Assembly: GCA_027459625.1 (NCBI GenBank)
Contig: DAIDHP010000004.1
Span: 169,276-233,275 of the forward strand
DNA from: Chthonomonadales bacterium
GTDB lineage: Bacteria > Armatimonadota > Chthonomonadetes > Chthonomonadales > CAJBBX01
DNA: 64,000 nucleotides
Direction: 5' to 3'
The translations under genes were made by a program, and so were the position numbers. The notes beneath the pieces were generated by a model. The model ran no database searches. It was given only the letters and a program-made list of their open reading frames with translations, and was not told where the DNA came from. This document shows positions 2,107 through 6,287 of the stretch, one piece after another; the first letter of the stretch is position 1; every line of letters starts with the position of its first letter.

Positions 2107-2697
2107 ATGTCGATTCAAATCCCCAAACCGCCAGGATTGGAGTCTCTTAAAGCGCTTGGCATTCATCCGAGGAATGTCAACAAGGAACATGAGGAAAGCC
2201 TGAGTTTCCTCGACCGTATTGCATTGAAAATCACGGTTGTAGTTGGAACCATGGGCTTTTTCCTCTTGATTGCCTTATGGACCTTCATATGGACCGGTTA
2301 CAATATGATCGCGTCTCTGTTTCCCAAACTCGGGATAAGACCGTTCGATCCGTTCCCCGCATTTGTCGCTTATCTCTTGATTAGCAATGTGGTCCAAATA
2401 CTACTAATGCCGCTCATCATGGTGGGGCAGAATCTTCAAGGCAAGCACGCCGAACTTCGCGCTGAAAACGATTATCAAATCAATTTAAAGGCGGAGAAGG
2501 AGATTAACATGATCATCAGCCATTTGGAGTATCAAAACTCATTGCTGTTGATGATCATCGAGAACCAAGGCGTCAATCATGAGGAGGCTCTTAAGATGAT
2601 CACAAAGAATGAAGCTGAAATTCGCAAAATTCTAAGTTCCCAGGAGAATCAGGAACCGGCGAACATAACATCAGATATGAAAAGCGCGGAAAGCTAA
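2107..2697 (+). CDS. DUF1003 membrane protein
   Basis: The protein has 196 residues. It has two transmembrane helices at about residues 44-66 and 80-103, with the DUF1003 signatures FLDRIALKIT, W-x-x-x-N and the acidic segment RAENDYQINLKAEKEI following the second helix. The C-terminal third is a charged helix. Members of this family are small inner-membrane proteins of unknown function. AGGAGG lies at 2097-2102 before the ATG. The 3' end overlaps the convergent membrane-protease-like gene by 27 bases, so the two transcripts are antisense at their ends. Confidence 0.85.
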   Translation: MSIQIPKPPGLESLKALGIHPRNVNKEHEESLSFLDRIALKITVVVGTMGFFLLIALWTFIWTGYNMIASLFPKLGIRPFDPFPAFVAYLLISNVVQILLMPLIMVGQNLQGKHAELRAENDYQINLKAEKEINMIISHLEYQNSLLLMIIENQGVNHEEALKMITKNEAEIRKILSSQENQEPANITSDMKSAES

Positions 2698-3561
2698 GAT
2701 TATCAGCAATACCATGATTACCGCATACAGCATTGCGAAAGCTTCCGATCTTGAATAGCGGAAGCTTTTCCAATGCAACCCTATCATCACCACCGCCATG
2801 GGCACCAAAGCCGGAAGATTTACATTGAAGAATATCGTGAAACCCATATAGGCGCAGAGGGTGATGATCAACGCCTTCACCGTTAACGAATACGTCCGCT
2901 GATTGGGCGAAAACCTGCAAATCGCCGCCACGAAGAAGGCGATAAAAAGATAATCCGCAAATCCGATGGATGGAAGCTGTTGAAAGATAGGAAGTTTCGG
3001 TGCGGTTTTCACCAAGAGGGTGTGCCTTACCGCGTGAGCGACAGGGGATGGACTTTGAAGCGCTTTTTGCACCGGTCCGCCTAGCAACACTGTCCAAATA
3101 TCCACGAAAGCCAACGCGATGGAGACCGGCAAGATCAGATTCACGTCGCTTAATAGATACGAAAGCGCACCGCCGATGCTTGCAGCGAACCAAATCAACA
3201 ATAGGTTGGTTACGCCTGGAAGAAAGCTCTCCACCGCTATTACAGGCAAGAACCCAATTCTTGACAGCGCCACCCAAATGGCTCCCAAAATCGAATATAA
3301 CATGAACTTGATGGCTATGGATCGATTATGTGAGCCTTTTACGCCCACGAGTGTGGCGAACCAAAGAGTCAATGCCATGGAGCATAGTGCGAGAAGAGGT
3401 GCGAGAACAATGATCGCTCGTCCGTGCAGGAACCAAGTTAATACTCTCCACATTGCCAAATAGGAGATGAGAATAATTGGAATGTAAGAGCGGGGGGCGT
3501 CTGGTAAAGTGTTTGTTTGACCTTCGCCTGAACCATCCGATGAAGTGTTTTGTGATTCCAT
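2671..3561 (-). CDS. Polytopic membrane protein with presenilin/SPP-like aspartyl protease motifs
   Basis: The protein has 296 residues: a short polar N terminus, then about eight or nine hydrophobic helices. Three motifs appear in the order and spacing expected of GxGD intramembrane aspartyl proteases. The first is AFVDIWTVLLGGP with Asp154, compared with YD-x-x-AVL-x-x-x-GP of presenilin. The second is IGFADYLF with Asp203, compared with GLGDFIF. The third is LPALVP at residues 249-254, compared with the PAL(P) motif of presenilin/SPP. The third GxGD position is Ala instead of Gly. AGAGGAG precedes the ATG. Family membership is inferred by eye; a chance match in a hydrophobic protein is the alternative. 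It is transcribed divergently from the ANTAR regulator. Confidence 0.6.
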   Translation of the reverse strand: MESQNTSSDGSGEGQTNTLPDAPRSYIPIILISYLAMWRVLTWFLHGRAIIVLAPLLALCSMALTLWFATLVGVKGSHNRSIAIKFMLYSILGAIWVALSRIGFLPVIAVESFLPGVTNLLLIWFAASIGGALSYLLSDVNLILPVSIALAFVDIWTVLLGGPVQKALQSPSPVAHAVRHTLLVKTAPKLPIFQQLPSIGFADYLFIAFFVAAICRFSPNQRTYSLTVKALIITLCAYMGFTIFFNVNLPALVPMAVVMIGLHWKSFRYSRSEAFAMLYAVIMVLLIILAFRAFHI

Positions 3562-3888
3562 GAACTCCTCTGGAAATTCGCTTTGACAAAAGATACTGTT
3601 TTATTATATAATAGGAATGAAACTAACGTCAAACATAGGAATGATAGTTCATTCACATATCAACTCCTTAACGCATAGCCACAAAACGCGATGTATCAAT
3701 GAGGATATTTTGCGATCCCTCCGGTCGGTTCCACTTCTTCGGGTTGAATCCTAAATCTCAATGACGCAGTGTGAGGCGTCTTGATTGTCTCAATCAGCCA
3801 AATTCACCAACGTTCCGGAGGCTCTATATTCATACATGGAGCGATGAGGCTTCACCGTCCAAGTTGATCATTACAGGAGGGCTAGGAA
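3562..3888. other. Intergenic region with long regulator leader
   Basis: This 327-base gap holds the divergent promoter pair and the predicted 270-base untranslated leader of the ANTAR regulator. Small hairpins are visible in the leader (GACGC/GCGTC near 3763-3781 and TGATTG/CAATCA just after). I see no obvious poly-T terminator and no small coding gene. Confidence 0.5.
3582..3631. promoter_or_regulatory. Overlapping divergent promoters
   Basis: On the plus strand TTGACA (3582-3587) and TATAAT (3606-3611) are separated by 18 bases. On the minus strand TTGACG (3631-3626) and TATAAT (3607-3602) are also separated by 18 bases. The two -10 boxes overlap inside the palindrome TATTATATAATA. The plus promoter would drive the ANTAR response regulator with a leader of about 270 bases; the minus promoter would drive the presenilin-like gene with a leader of about 35 bases. 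Confidence 0.75.
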
Positions 3889-4482
3889 ATGTCTGAAACC
3901 ACTGGTAAAACAAAGCTGCGTATTTTAATCGCCGATGATGAGCCAATTATCCGTCTGGATTTGAAGAAAATGCTCGAGGAAATCGGATATGAATGCGTTG
4001 CCGAGGCTGGTGACGGGGCGAAAGCCGTGGAAGCGGCTCGAAACCTATCTCCAGATCTTGTAATCCTGGATATTATGATGCCTGAAATGGATGGCATTGA
4101 CGCTGCGAAAATCATTGATCAGGAAAAAATAGCTCCGGTGATACTTCTTTCCGCCTACAGTCAGGTGGATTTGGTGAATCGCGCCAAGGAGGCGGGTGTA
4201 TTCTCCTATCTGGTGAAGCCATTCAAGATGGCGGATTTGGTACCCGCAATCGAGATCGCCATGTCCAGATGGCAAGAGATGCTGGAATTGGAAAAAGAGG
4301 CCAAGGATTTCGAAGATAAACTGGAAACGAGAAAAGCCGTTGATCGAGCGAAGGGCATACTGATGGATCAGTACGGGCTTAAGGAGCAGGAAGCATTTCG
4401 ACGAATTCAGGTCCAAAGCATGAACACTCGGAAATCCATGCGTGAAATCGCCGAAGCCATTATCATCGCCCATAACGTGTGA
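3889..4482 (+). CDS. ANTAR-domain response regulator (NasT/EutV type)
   Basis: The protein has 197 residues. The N-terminal receiver domain (10-125) carries acidic Asp16/Asp17, phospho-acceptor Asp61 in LDIMMPEMDG, and Lys110 in LVKPF. The C-terminal ANTAR domain (about 136-190) has the typical VDRAKGILMDQYGL and EAFRRIQ helices. ANTAR proteins bind paired RNA hairpins and prevent premature transcription termination. The sensor kinase gene follows 50 bases downstream, so this is a cognate pair of the EutV/EutW type. AGGAGGG lies at 3876-3882. Its RNA targets are not evident in the window, although its own long leader is a candidate for autoregulation. Confidence 0.92.
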   Translation: MSETTGKTKLRILIADDEPIIRLDLKKMLEEIGYECVAEAGDGAKAVEAARNLSPDLVILDIMMPEMDGIDAAKIIDQEKIAPVILLSAYSQVDLVNRAKEAGVFSYLVKPFKMADLVPAIEIAMSRWQEMLELEKEAKDFEDKLETRKAVDRAKGILMDQYGLKEQEAFRRIQVQSMNTRKSMREIAEAIIIAHNV

Positions 4483-4532: not shown

Positions 4533-6287
4533 GTGCGAACCCCGTTGAGAATGCGACGTCTCTTTTATCCGGGACGGCGAAGCGAGAATCCGGATGTCGC
4601 TATCCTCCAGCAGGAGCTTGAGGAAAAAGACAGACAGCTTCGAGACACGCTCATGCTGGTGGATAAACTGCGCGCGGAATGCACCGAGAAAGCCGCCGAG
4701 GCGGAATCCTTGAGCCGTCTGGGAGAGGCCACGGGGTCAGTTTTTGATTTGGAGGAGATGCTCAAGGCCACCGCTGAAATCGCCATTCGCCTTACCGGAA
4801 CCGATTCTTGCCAGGTTTATCTCTACGATAAGACGCGGGATGAACTCGTTCTGCGCGCCGCCGATGAAACCGCCACGAACATGATAGGCAAAATCCACCT
4901 GAAATTGGGCGAAGGCATTACGGGTTGGGTGGCGAGAGAACGAAAGCATGTGGCTATCGTCCGAAACGCGACCCGGGATCATCGCTTTAAATACTTCTCC
5001 GAGATTCACGAGGAGGAATATGAAAGCATTCTCTCCGTGCCTCTCATTTTCCGAAATGAGGTGCTTGGAGTTATCAATGTTCGCACGAAACATCCTCACG
5101 AATACACCCTCAACCAAGTGAGACTGCTTTCGGGCATCGCGAACCAAGTGGCGGGCGCCATCGATAAAACACGGCGCGCACGGCTTCTGGAAAAAACAGC
5201 GGATCAGTTGCACACACTGTCCGAAGTCAGTCAGGCGATCACTTCCAACGTATACCTTAACGATATCCTCGAACTATTCGTGAAGATGACCGCCCGCACC
5301 ATGAACTACAAAGTATGCACGGTGTTATTGCTGGATCAGGAAAAGAACGAACTGGTAATCAAAGCCACTCAAAGCGATGACCCCGCCTACACAAACAAGC
5401 CCAATTTGAAAGTCGGAGAGAGCCTCGCAGGCAGGGCTGTCATGGACGGAAAAGTCGTTACCGTGCTGGATGTTAAAAAGCATCCGCGTTATAAGTTTCC
5501 CGATATCGCCGAGCGGGCCGGATTGTGTTCCCTTGCGGCGATACCGCTGATGTTTCAAGGCAAGGCGATAGGGATTCTTAACTGCTATACGGATAAGCCC
5601 CACACCTTCACCAAAGAGGAGATCACCATTCTCCAGGCGTTGGGCGCCCAGGCGGCGTTTGCGGTGGAGCACGCCAAATTAATGGTGAAATCCGCCGTCA
5701 TACAGGAGATGCATCATCGCGTCAAAAACAATCTCCAACAAATCGCCAGTTTGGTCCGACTTCAAATGCATTTCAGCAAAGGCGCGAGTGTCGAGGAGAC
5801 CATGAACGACACTCTGAATCGTATCCTCGCCATTGCCGCGGTGCATGAACTCCTCTCGCGGGAGGATTTGGATTCAGTAAGCGTAAAAAAGGTGTCGGAG
5901 CAGATACTCACCGCCACAAAGCAGAGCGTGGTGGCTCCAGGCAAAAGCCTGTACACGCTCGTGGAAGGCCCGGATATCCGACTCCCGCTCAACCAAGCCA
6001 CATCATTGGCTTTGGTGATAAACGAGTTGGTGCAAAATGCGGTGGAGCATGGTTTCGCTACCATCGATGAAGGACGGATTTGGGTGAAACTAGAGGAAAC
6101 CGATTCGGAAATAGCTCTTTATATTTTAAATGACGGTCAACCGTTGCCCGAAAATTTCGACCCCGTAAAAACGAGCAGCCTAGGCTTAAGGATCGTCATG
6201 GACCTGGTCCGTGGCGGCTTGGGAGGCACATTTGTGATGGAGAACAAGGACGGAATTCTCGCTACGGTGCGATTTCCGAAAGCTTAA
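4533..6287 (+). CDS. Cytosolic sensor histidine kinase, GAF-GAF-HisKA_2
   Basis: The kinase has 584 residues. It has an N-terminal coiled coil (about 20-60), GAF domain 1 (about 69-212), GAF domain 2 (about 233-382), the HisKA_2 box with phospho-acceptor in QEMHHRVKNNLQQI (His394 or His395), and a HATPase (about 465-584) with N box NELVQNAVEH and DGQPLP. No transmembrane segment is present, so it senses an intracellular small molecule or redox state. HisKA_2 kinases commonly pair with ANTAR regulators, and that regulator is the gene just upstream. The GTG start at 4533 is chosen because AGGAG at 4521-4525 precedes it. A terminator-like hairpin follows at 6318. Confidence 0.9.
   Translation: MRTPLRMRRLFYPGRRSENPDVAILQQELEEKDRQLRDTLMLVDKLRAECTEKAAEAESLSRLGEATGSVFDLEEMLKATAEIAIRLTGTDSCQVYLYDKTRDELVLRAADETATNMIGKIHLKLGEGITGWVARERKHVAIVRNATRDHRFKYFSEIHEEEYESILSVPLIFRNEVLGVINVRTKHPHEYTLNQVRLLSGIANQVAGAIDKTRRARLLEKTADQLHTLSEVSQAITSNVYLNDILELFVKMTARTMNYKVCTVLLLDQEKNELVIKATQSDDPAYTNKPNLKVGESLAGRAVMDGKVVTVLDVKKHPRYKFPDIAERAGLCSLAAIPLMFQGKAIGILNCYTDKPHTFTKEEITILQALGAQAAFAVEHAKLMVKSAVIQEMHHRVKNNLQQIASLVRLQMHFSKGASVEETMNDTLNRILAIAAVHELLSREDLDSVSVKKVSEQILTATKQSVVAPGKSLYTLVEGPDIRLPLNQATSLALVINELVQNAVEHGFATIDEGRIWVKLEETDSEIALYILNDGQPLPENFDPVKTSSLGLRIVMDLVRGGLGGTFVMENKDGILATVRFPKA

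Follow-up and report, generated by a model that had tools for sequence, protein, structure and literature searches.

A 64,000-nucleotide stretch of a Chthonomonadales genome (phylum Armatimonadota; contig DAIDHP010000004.1, positions 169,276 to 233,275; hereafter the window) contains on its reverse strand an ATG-initiated open reading frame (2671-3561) for a 296-residue protein that is likely to be an intramembrane protease of the presenilin type. The protein is conserved across its phylum, has the predicted fold of presenilin and signal peptide peptidase (SPP), and probably cleaves its substrates within the membrane through Asp154 and Asp203. We favor a reading in which it is oriented like SPP, acts on type II helices in membrane housekeeping, and is slowed or made choosier by an Ala in its second active-site motif. 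An A22-type protease had been proposed here by the first-pass annotation of this DNA, and that proposal is supported by the fold of two structural models and by in-register profile matches to presenilin-1, the activity itself being predicted. The gene is real and constrained by purifying selection, with dN/dS against a genome of the same genus standing at 0.043/0.317.

A protein search recovered 76 homologues, which are labeled "hypothetical protein" wherever they are named and none of which carries a Pfam domain. We prepared three alignments: A2, comprising the window protein and 70 of these homologues (71 rows; the near-identical P0001 as well as P0031, P0038, P0055, P0059 and P0074 were left out); A3, with 56 sequences spanning the phylum (the window protein, 54 frames from other genomes and P0076); and A4, with 24 members. 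Asp154, Asp203 within GFAD (200-203) and PALVP at 250-254 (LPALVP, 249-254) all lie at the residues originally assigned to them. In A2 the residues D154, G200, D203, A251, L252 and P254 are invariant in 71/71 rows and P250 is kept in 70/71, while the invariant columns of A3 (56/56) are G130, D154, P191, G200, D203 and E273. The PAL columns of A3 are somewhat more variable, with P in 51/56 rows, A in 36 (G in 17 and L in 3) and L in 53/56. Because D154, G200, D203, A251, L252 and P254 do not vary, and in view of the predicted fold, we reject a chance match to the motifs. Among the 73 frames from the fetched loci, window included, 72 have both aspartates, the odd one out being a C-terminal fragment of the gene in locus L027, which carries a frameshift.

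The strict signatures of A22 enzymes are YD, GxGD and PAL (PMC2947513). The claimed match to them stands for both aspartates and for the PAL motif, which is present as PALVP, and fails for the residue just before each aspartate. Val precedes Asp154 in the window protein, and Tyr does so in just one of the 73 frames (LIGYDAFLV); GFAD replaces GxGD, the 73 frames dividing into 38 with GxGD, 34 with GxAD and one that lacks the region. Judged by these signatures and by Pfam cut-offs, the window protein is outside A22 at the sequence level. Its predicted fold, together with the GxGD motif that its distant members display, places it in one superfamily with presenilin and SPP.

The predicted structure displays the presenilin fold of A22 proteins. 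The top PDB entries for the two structure predictions (22/22 and 24/24) are all presenilin, SPPL2a or PSH, with a gap in Z to the rest; the structure prediction that had been proposed as a check therefore returned this fold from both models and no other family at comparable Z. The model helices span residues 27-44, 50-78, 80-102, 105-113, 117-136, 140-159 (with Asp154), 201-217 (with Asp203), 221-245, 252-262 (following PAL) and 271-293, besides short loop helices; helix 271-293 has the invariant Glu273 close to its beginning. Presenilin aligns over residues ~50-269 of the model. Within this aligned core four full helices and one short one lead up to and include that of the first Asp, as against six helices in presenilin. 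The core thus appears to be one hairpin shorter than that of presenilin, with one helix added at each end, and the canonical nine-helix plan that had been anticipated is not the one predicted. The structural alignments end on presenilin-1 with residue 268 on 451 in one model and 263 on 452 in the other. If ungapped, these would place P250 and P244 on presenilin-1 residue 433, its PAL proline, which is consistent with the motif assignment but not proof of it.

Kinship was also sought with sequence profiles against 177,635 distinct PDB sequences. The best match of the A3 profile is the presenilin-1 C-terminal fragment 2kr6 (E 0.013), with the GxGD region placed on GLGD and PAL on PAL; its other two matches are acetylcholine-receptor constructs, aligned through another region (E 0.051 and 1). 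The sole match of the A4 profile is presenilin-1 (E 0.0072), GFAD being aligned to GLGD. The profile search suggested at the outset therefore bore out the proposal in part: presenilin-1 is the best PDB match of two broad profiles and is aligned in register, while E-values are weak and Pfam cut-offs are not reached. We nevertheless regard the presenilin-1 match as telling because the register holds at two motifs. Narrower queries were negative: the window protein has zero Pfam matches at E <= 1; NCBIfam, the single-sequence PDB search and the close-homologue A2 profile against PDB gave no A22 match; and PDB yielded no match to a profile restricted to the Asp154 region.

Individual members were likewise compared with Pfam. 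In A2, Presenilin is matched by 1/71 (best E 0.35) and DUF7657 by 5 members (best 0.0038). In A3, Presenilin is matched by 4/56 (best 0.055), with unrelated families reaching 0.0086 in single members. In A4, Presenilin is matched by 10/24 (best 0.036) and Peptidase_A22B (PF04258) by 2, the best E for the latter, 0.014, coming from such members only; one A4 member matches an ABC transporter family at 0.0027. Presenilin is the Pfam family matched by the largest number of members in A4 and in A3, all A22 matches falling below the cut-off. Searched over 101 genomes, the Presenilin hidden Markov model (HMM) gave 29 weak matches, two of them at this gene (G031:C295 and G038:C72) with a third, in G084, that may be so too, and the SPP HMM gave 6, none at this gene. 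The SPP HMM found nothing in the window's own genome, while archaeal controls were positive. As the matches of both models lie almost entirely away from the gene, these HMMs do not detect the family.

The gene is conserved across Armatimonadota, in nearly every genome and mostly in single copy. A single-protein search found it in 82/101 genomes, and the A3 profile in 269/291 genomes of the phylum and 152/156 genera, including 186/194 genomes with >= 90% completeness and <= 5% contamination. The phylum is here the genome set's own grouping; an Abditibacteriales genome that NCBI assigns to a different phylum is counted in it. Most genomes have one match and some have two or three. Genome G015 (one contig, 3.44 Mb) has multiple matches because its gene is in pieces: at L027:7802-8808 it occupies two overlapping frames, the PAL part being out of frame with the Asp part, which reflects either a broken gene or a sequencing error. 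Genome G087 carries two tandem copies (L036:7723-9618), both GPGD.

When 5.8 billion proteins were searched twice by profile (~8,000 candidates scored each time; most matches are unnamed) and 84,980 species genomes were scanned once (19 loci), no relative clearly outside this phylum group was recovered. The names among the matches are Armatimonadetes/Armatimonadota, Chthonomonadales, Hebobacteria, one Abditibacteriales, one Fervidibacter, two "Bacillota" metagenome-assembled genomes and one "uncultured bacterium". NCBI treats Abditibacteriota and Fervidibacterota as separate phyla; by their coordinates, G230 and G227 account for the "Bacillota" loci and G098 for the "uncultured" one, and the Abditibacteriales locus corresponds to G081:C481; the genome set assigns all four to the same phylum. 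A literature search by title and the start of the abstract, with most subscription journals lying outside it, found no paper on a bacterial or Armatimonadota presenilin among the results listed; the title of a paper by Steiner from 2000 mentions bacterial polytopic aspartyl proteases.

The Ala at the third residue of GxGD, singled out early as a possible modifier of activity, is real, and the window protein shares it with its whole clade. Asp203 follows Gly in 37 and Ala in 33 of 70 frames (the 73 less L027 and the partial L065). When the motif columns are excluded, the resulting tree requires at least two changes between Ala and Gly; all 22 frames of the window's order are GFAD, and a second Ala group of 11 has GPAD or GFAD. 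A single origin of Ala is found in 1% of bootstrap trees, and the starred branches of the tree are compatible with one origin. The same change in archaeal MCMJR1 (G219A) slows proteolysis, as does presenilin-1 G384A the production of amyloid-β40 (PMC2947513); in another report G384A raised amyloid-β42 with no significant effect on Notch (PMC2405781). Since Gly-to-Ala makes PSH, presenilin-1 and SPPL2b slower or choosier, a native GxAD enzyme is expected to be active, yet to differ from its GxGD relatives in the same way. In the same 70 frames, the S49 peptidase SppA is absent in 31/33 of the Ala type and present in 29/37 of the Gly type, a pairing that spans only two state changes on the tree and hence few independent pairs.

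The distribution of positive charge in the loops suggests an orientation in the membrane. The density of Lys and Arg is higher in loops 2/4/6/8 than in loops 1/3/5/7 in 71/71 sequences of A2 (mean 0.198 vs 0.073) and in 55/56 of A3 (0.235 vs 0.067), the loop borders and the even/odd split having been chosen after the per-loop counts were viewed, and the tails left out. Together with the model, this predicts nine membrane helices with a cytosolic N-terminus and a non-cytosolic loop between the two aspartates. A 2004 study by Friedmann reportedly gave SPP an orientation opposite to that of presenilin. As the Asp-Asp loop is predicted to lie outside here, whereas that of presenilin-1 is cytoplasmic (PMC4326451), the predicted orientation is SPP-like.

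In the mechanism that we propose, a helix with a cytosolic N-terminus would enter the protein from the lipid, be unwound at the PAL turn, and be hydrolyzed by a water molecule that Asp154 and Asp203 activate between them. Suitable substrates would be helices of the N-in (type II) kind, remnant signal peptides for example, and the job would be one of membrane housekeeping. The remnants left by signal peptidase are indeed type II (PMC13252537, a preprint), and a core, mostly single-copy gene fits a housekeeping role. Several observations weigh against this picture. The Foldseek E-values of the models are weak, as are those of the A3 and A4 matches to presenilin-1, which fail a threshold of 0.001, and some unrelated single-member Pfam matches have lower E-values than Presenilin. 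PF01080 (Presenilin) and PF06550 (SPP) are over the cut-off in 0/101 genomes, and the helix plan is not the canonical nine. The C-terminal tail, predicted to be outside, is itself rich in Lys and Arg (3.7 in ~25 residues, A2). Finally, S49 SppA is over the cut-off in 43/101 relatives, though not in this genome. We give even odds to the view that the family, a core one in Armatimonadota, forms a third branch of the presenilin superfamily, a bacterial one with a trimmed N-terminal half, an added C-terminal helix, and just under half of its sampled members natively GxAD.

The gene neighborhood raises the alternative that the protein is an active diaspartyl intramembrane protease with a regulatory role, cutting not bulk signal peptides but a specific membrane-anchored regulator, in a pathway that it would share with the divergently transcribed ANTAR regulator and GAF histidine kinase. 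Across 61 loci from 61 genomes (distances measured between open frames), 21 of the 54 with sufficient sequence have an ANTAR regulator <=1.5 kb upstream on the opposite strand, and 16 of 49 have a histidine kinase <=3 kb upstream on that strand, in several families of the phylum; the overlapping divergent promoter-like sites at 3583-3632 also speak for such a link. The ANTAR regulator was not found within the same distance in the other 33/54, however, and instead of it or besides it leuS (leucyl-tRNA synthetase, named from reading the protein, without a family search) follows on the same strand <=1.5 kb downstream in 21/57 loci (L029, L030, L037, L041, L043, L046, L048-L050, L052, L053, L055, L056, L058-L061, L065, L066, L070 and L077). 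Either the regulator or leuS is present in 38/61 loci and both in four (L049, L053, L058 and L060); an order of kinase and regulator diverging from protease and leuS may be ancestral. In the window, the domains over the cut-off are GAF, HisKA_2 and ATPase alone for the kinase, and receiver and ANTAR alone for the regulator. As neither is by its domains an evident membrane substrate, we read the linkage first as one of shared promoters and operon history, and consider the regulatory role unlikely.

The protein might have a presenilin fold and yet be no protease but a pseudoenzyme, a chaperone or an ion-leak protein, its aspartates serving another role. In favor of this are the missing Tyr before Asp154 and, for members of the Ala clade, the missing third-position Gly. 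We think this improbable, since both aspartates and the first Gly of GxGD are among the phylum-invariant columns, the only frame in which an Asp is missing is a piece of a broken copy, and the Gly-to-Ala mutants of PSH and presenilin-1 are slowed, still cleaving (PMC2947513). That the protein is an unrelated polytopic one, e.g. a transporter, with motifs by chance might be argued from the negative Pfam and single-sequence PDB searches and from the weak Foldseek and profile E-values; it is very unlikely, given that the motif residues are among the few phylum-invariant positions, that two models point to one superfamily with a clear Z gap, and that the profile match to presenilin-1 keeps its register at two motifs. 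Among bacteria, the best-known aspartyl proteases of the GxGD type are the A24 enzymes. That the protein is prepilin-peptidase-like and no presenilin relative has the GxGD character of A24 in its favor (PMC4343526) and is scarcely credible, as the protein lacks a Pfam match at E <= 1, PF01478 included, a separate A24 gene (G000:C1:27162-27518, E 4.6e-12) is the genome's one PF01478 match, both models are presenilin-type, and the PAL motif is present. Prepilin peptidase identity was accordingly rejected on the missing PF01478 match and the A24 gene elsewhere.

Table 1. Features of the presenilin-like gene and its divergent neighbors (window positions)
Feature	Position	Strand	Basis
Coding sequence, predicted presenilin/SPP-fold intramembrane aspartyl protease, 296 aa	2671..3561	-	Open reading frame, model and PDB matches, phylum-wide homologues
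Glu273 codon, near start of extra C-terminal helix (271-293)	2743..2745	-	E in 56/56 A3 rows
PALVP 250-254, counterpart of PAL motif	2800..2814	-	Alignment and PDB profile register
GFAD 200-203 with Asp203, predicted second catalytic aspartate, counterpart of GxGD	2953..2964	-	G200 and D203 invariant in A2 and A3
Asp154 codon, predicted first catalytic aspartate (FVDIW)	3100..3102	-	D in 71/71 A2 and 56/56 A3 rows
Shine-Dalgarno-like motif AGAGGAG, 3 bases 5' of ATG	3565..3571	-	Sequence reading
Promoter-like site TTGACA-18-TATAAT, 12/12, divergent, overlapping	3583..3612	+	Consensus match only
Promoter-like site TTGACG-18-TATAAT, 11/12	3603..3632	-	Consensus match only
Receiver and ANTAR response regulator, conserved divergent neighbor	3889..4482	+	Pfam
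GAF-GAF-HisKA_2 histidine kinase, conserved neighbor	4533..6287	+	Pfam

Two near-perfect sigma-70-like sites on opposite strands overlap between the presenilin-like gene and the ANTAR regulator (Table 1). The reverse-strand site probably serves the former, and the forward-strand site the adjoining regulator. The promoter scan overall found 3 sites against 2.4 expected, so that the strength of these sites stands out and their number does not. At its 3' end the presenilin-like gene shares 27 bases with a convergent DUF1003 gene (2107-2697); the latter belongs to a forward-strand gene group (1036-2697) that also encodes a CaMKII-association/SnoaL-like protein and a universal stress protein. The window starts with a direct repeat of 38 bases (2-39 and 64-101; 89% identical).

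Few membrane proteases have been studied as much as presenilin and SPP, whose prokaryotic relatives in the literature that we found are archaeal. If our reading is true, presenilin-type diaspartyl intramembrane proteolysis extends deep into the bacteria, beyond archaea and eukaryotes, and the family would be a bacterial branch of the superfamily missed by the family databases searched. GxAD would then be the active-site form of a familial-Alzheimer-type presenilin mutation in native use, and natural GxAD enzymes would allow the role of the Gly before the catalytic Asp, the question posed by G384A, to be probed. A phylum-wide bacterial family would offer small single-chain models for structure and mechanism, provide a new test of the superfamily's place of origin, and suggest what a core protein of the entire phylum, so far labeled "hypothetical protein", is likely to do.

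Among known systems, the archaeal PSH/MCMJR1 of Methanoculleus marisnigri was not retrieved by the PDB sequence searches, and the window protein is set apart from it by fewer predicted helices before the first Asp, an extra predicted helix at each end, membership in a GxAD clade and the invariant Glu273. Human presenilin-1, the catalytic subunit of gamma-secretase, differs in the opposite orientation of its Asp-Asp loop relative to that predicted here and in the spacing of its aspartates, which is 128 residues (257 to 385) as against 43-61 in 71 frames of the family; there is also no evidence of partner subunits for the Armatimonadota protein. In comparison with SPP and SPPL2a (A22B), the window protein lacks a Pfam A22B match at the cut-off and shows VD where these have YD, and GxAD where they have GxGD. 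SppA (S49), a bacterial signal peptide peptidase, is an unrelated serine enzyme that possibly does the same job, namely the clearing of signal-peptide remnants.
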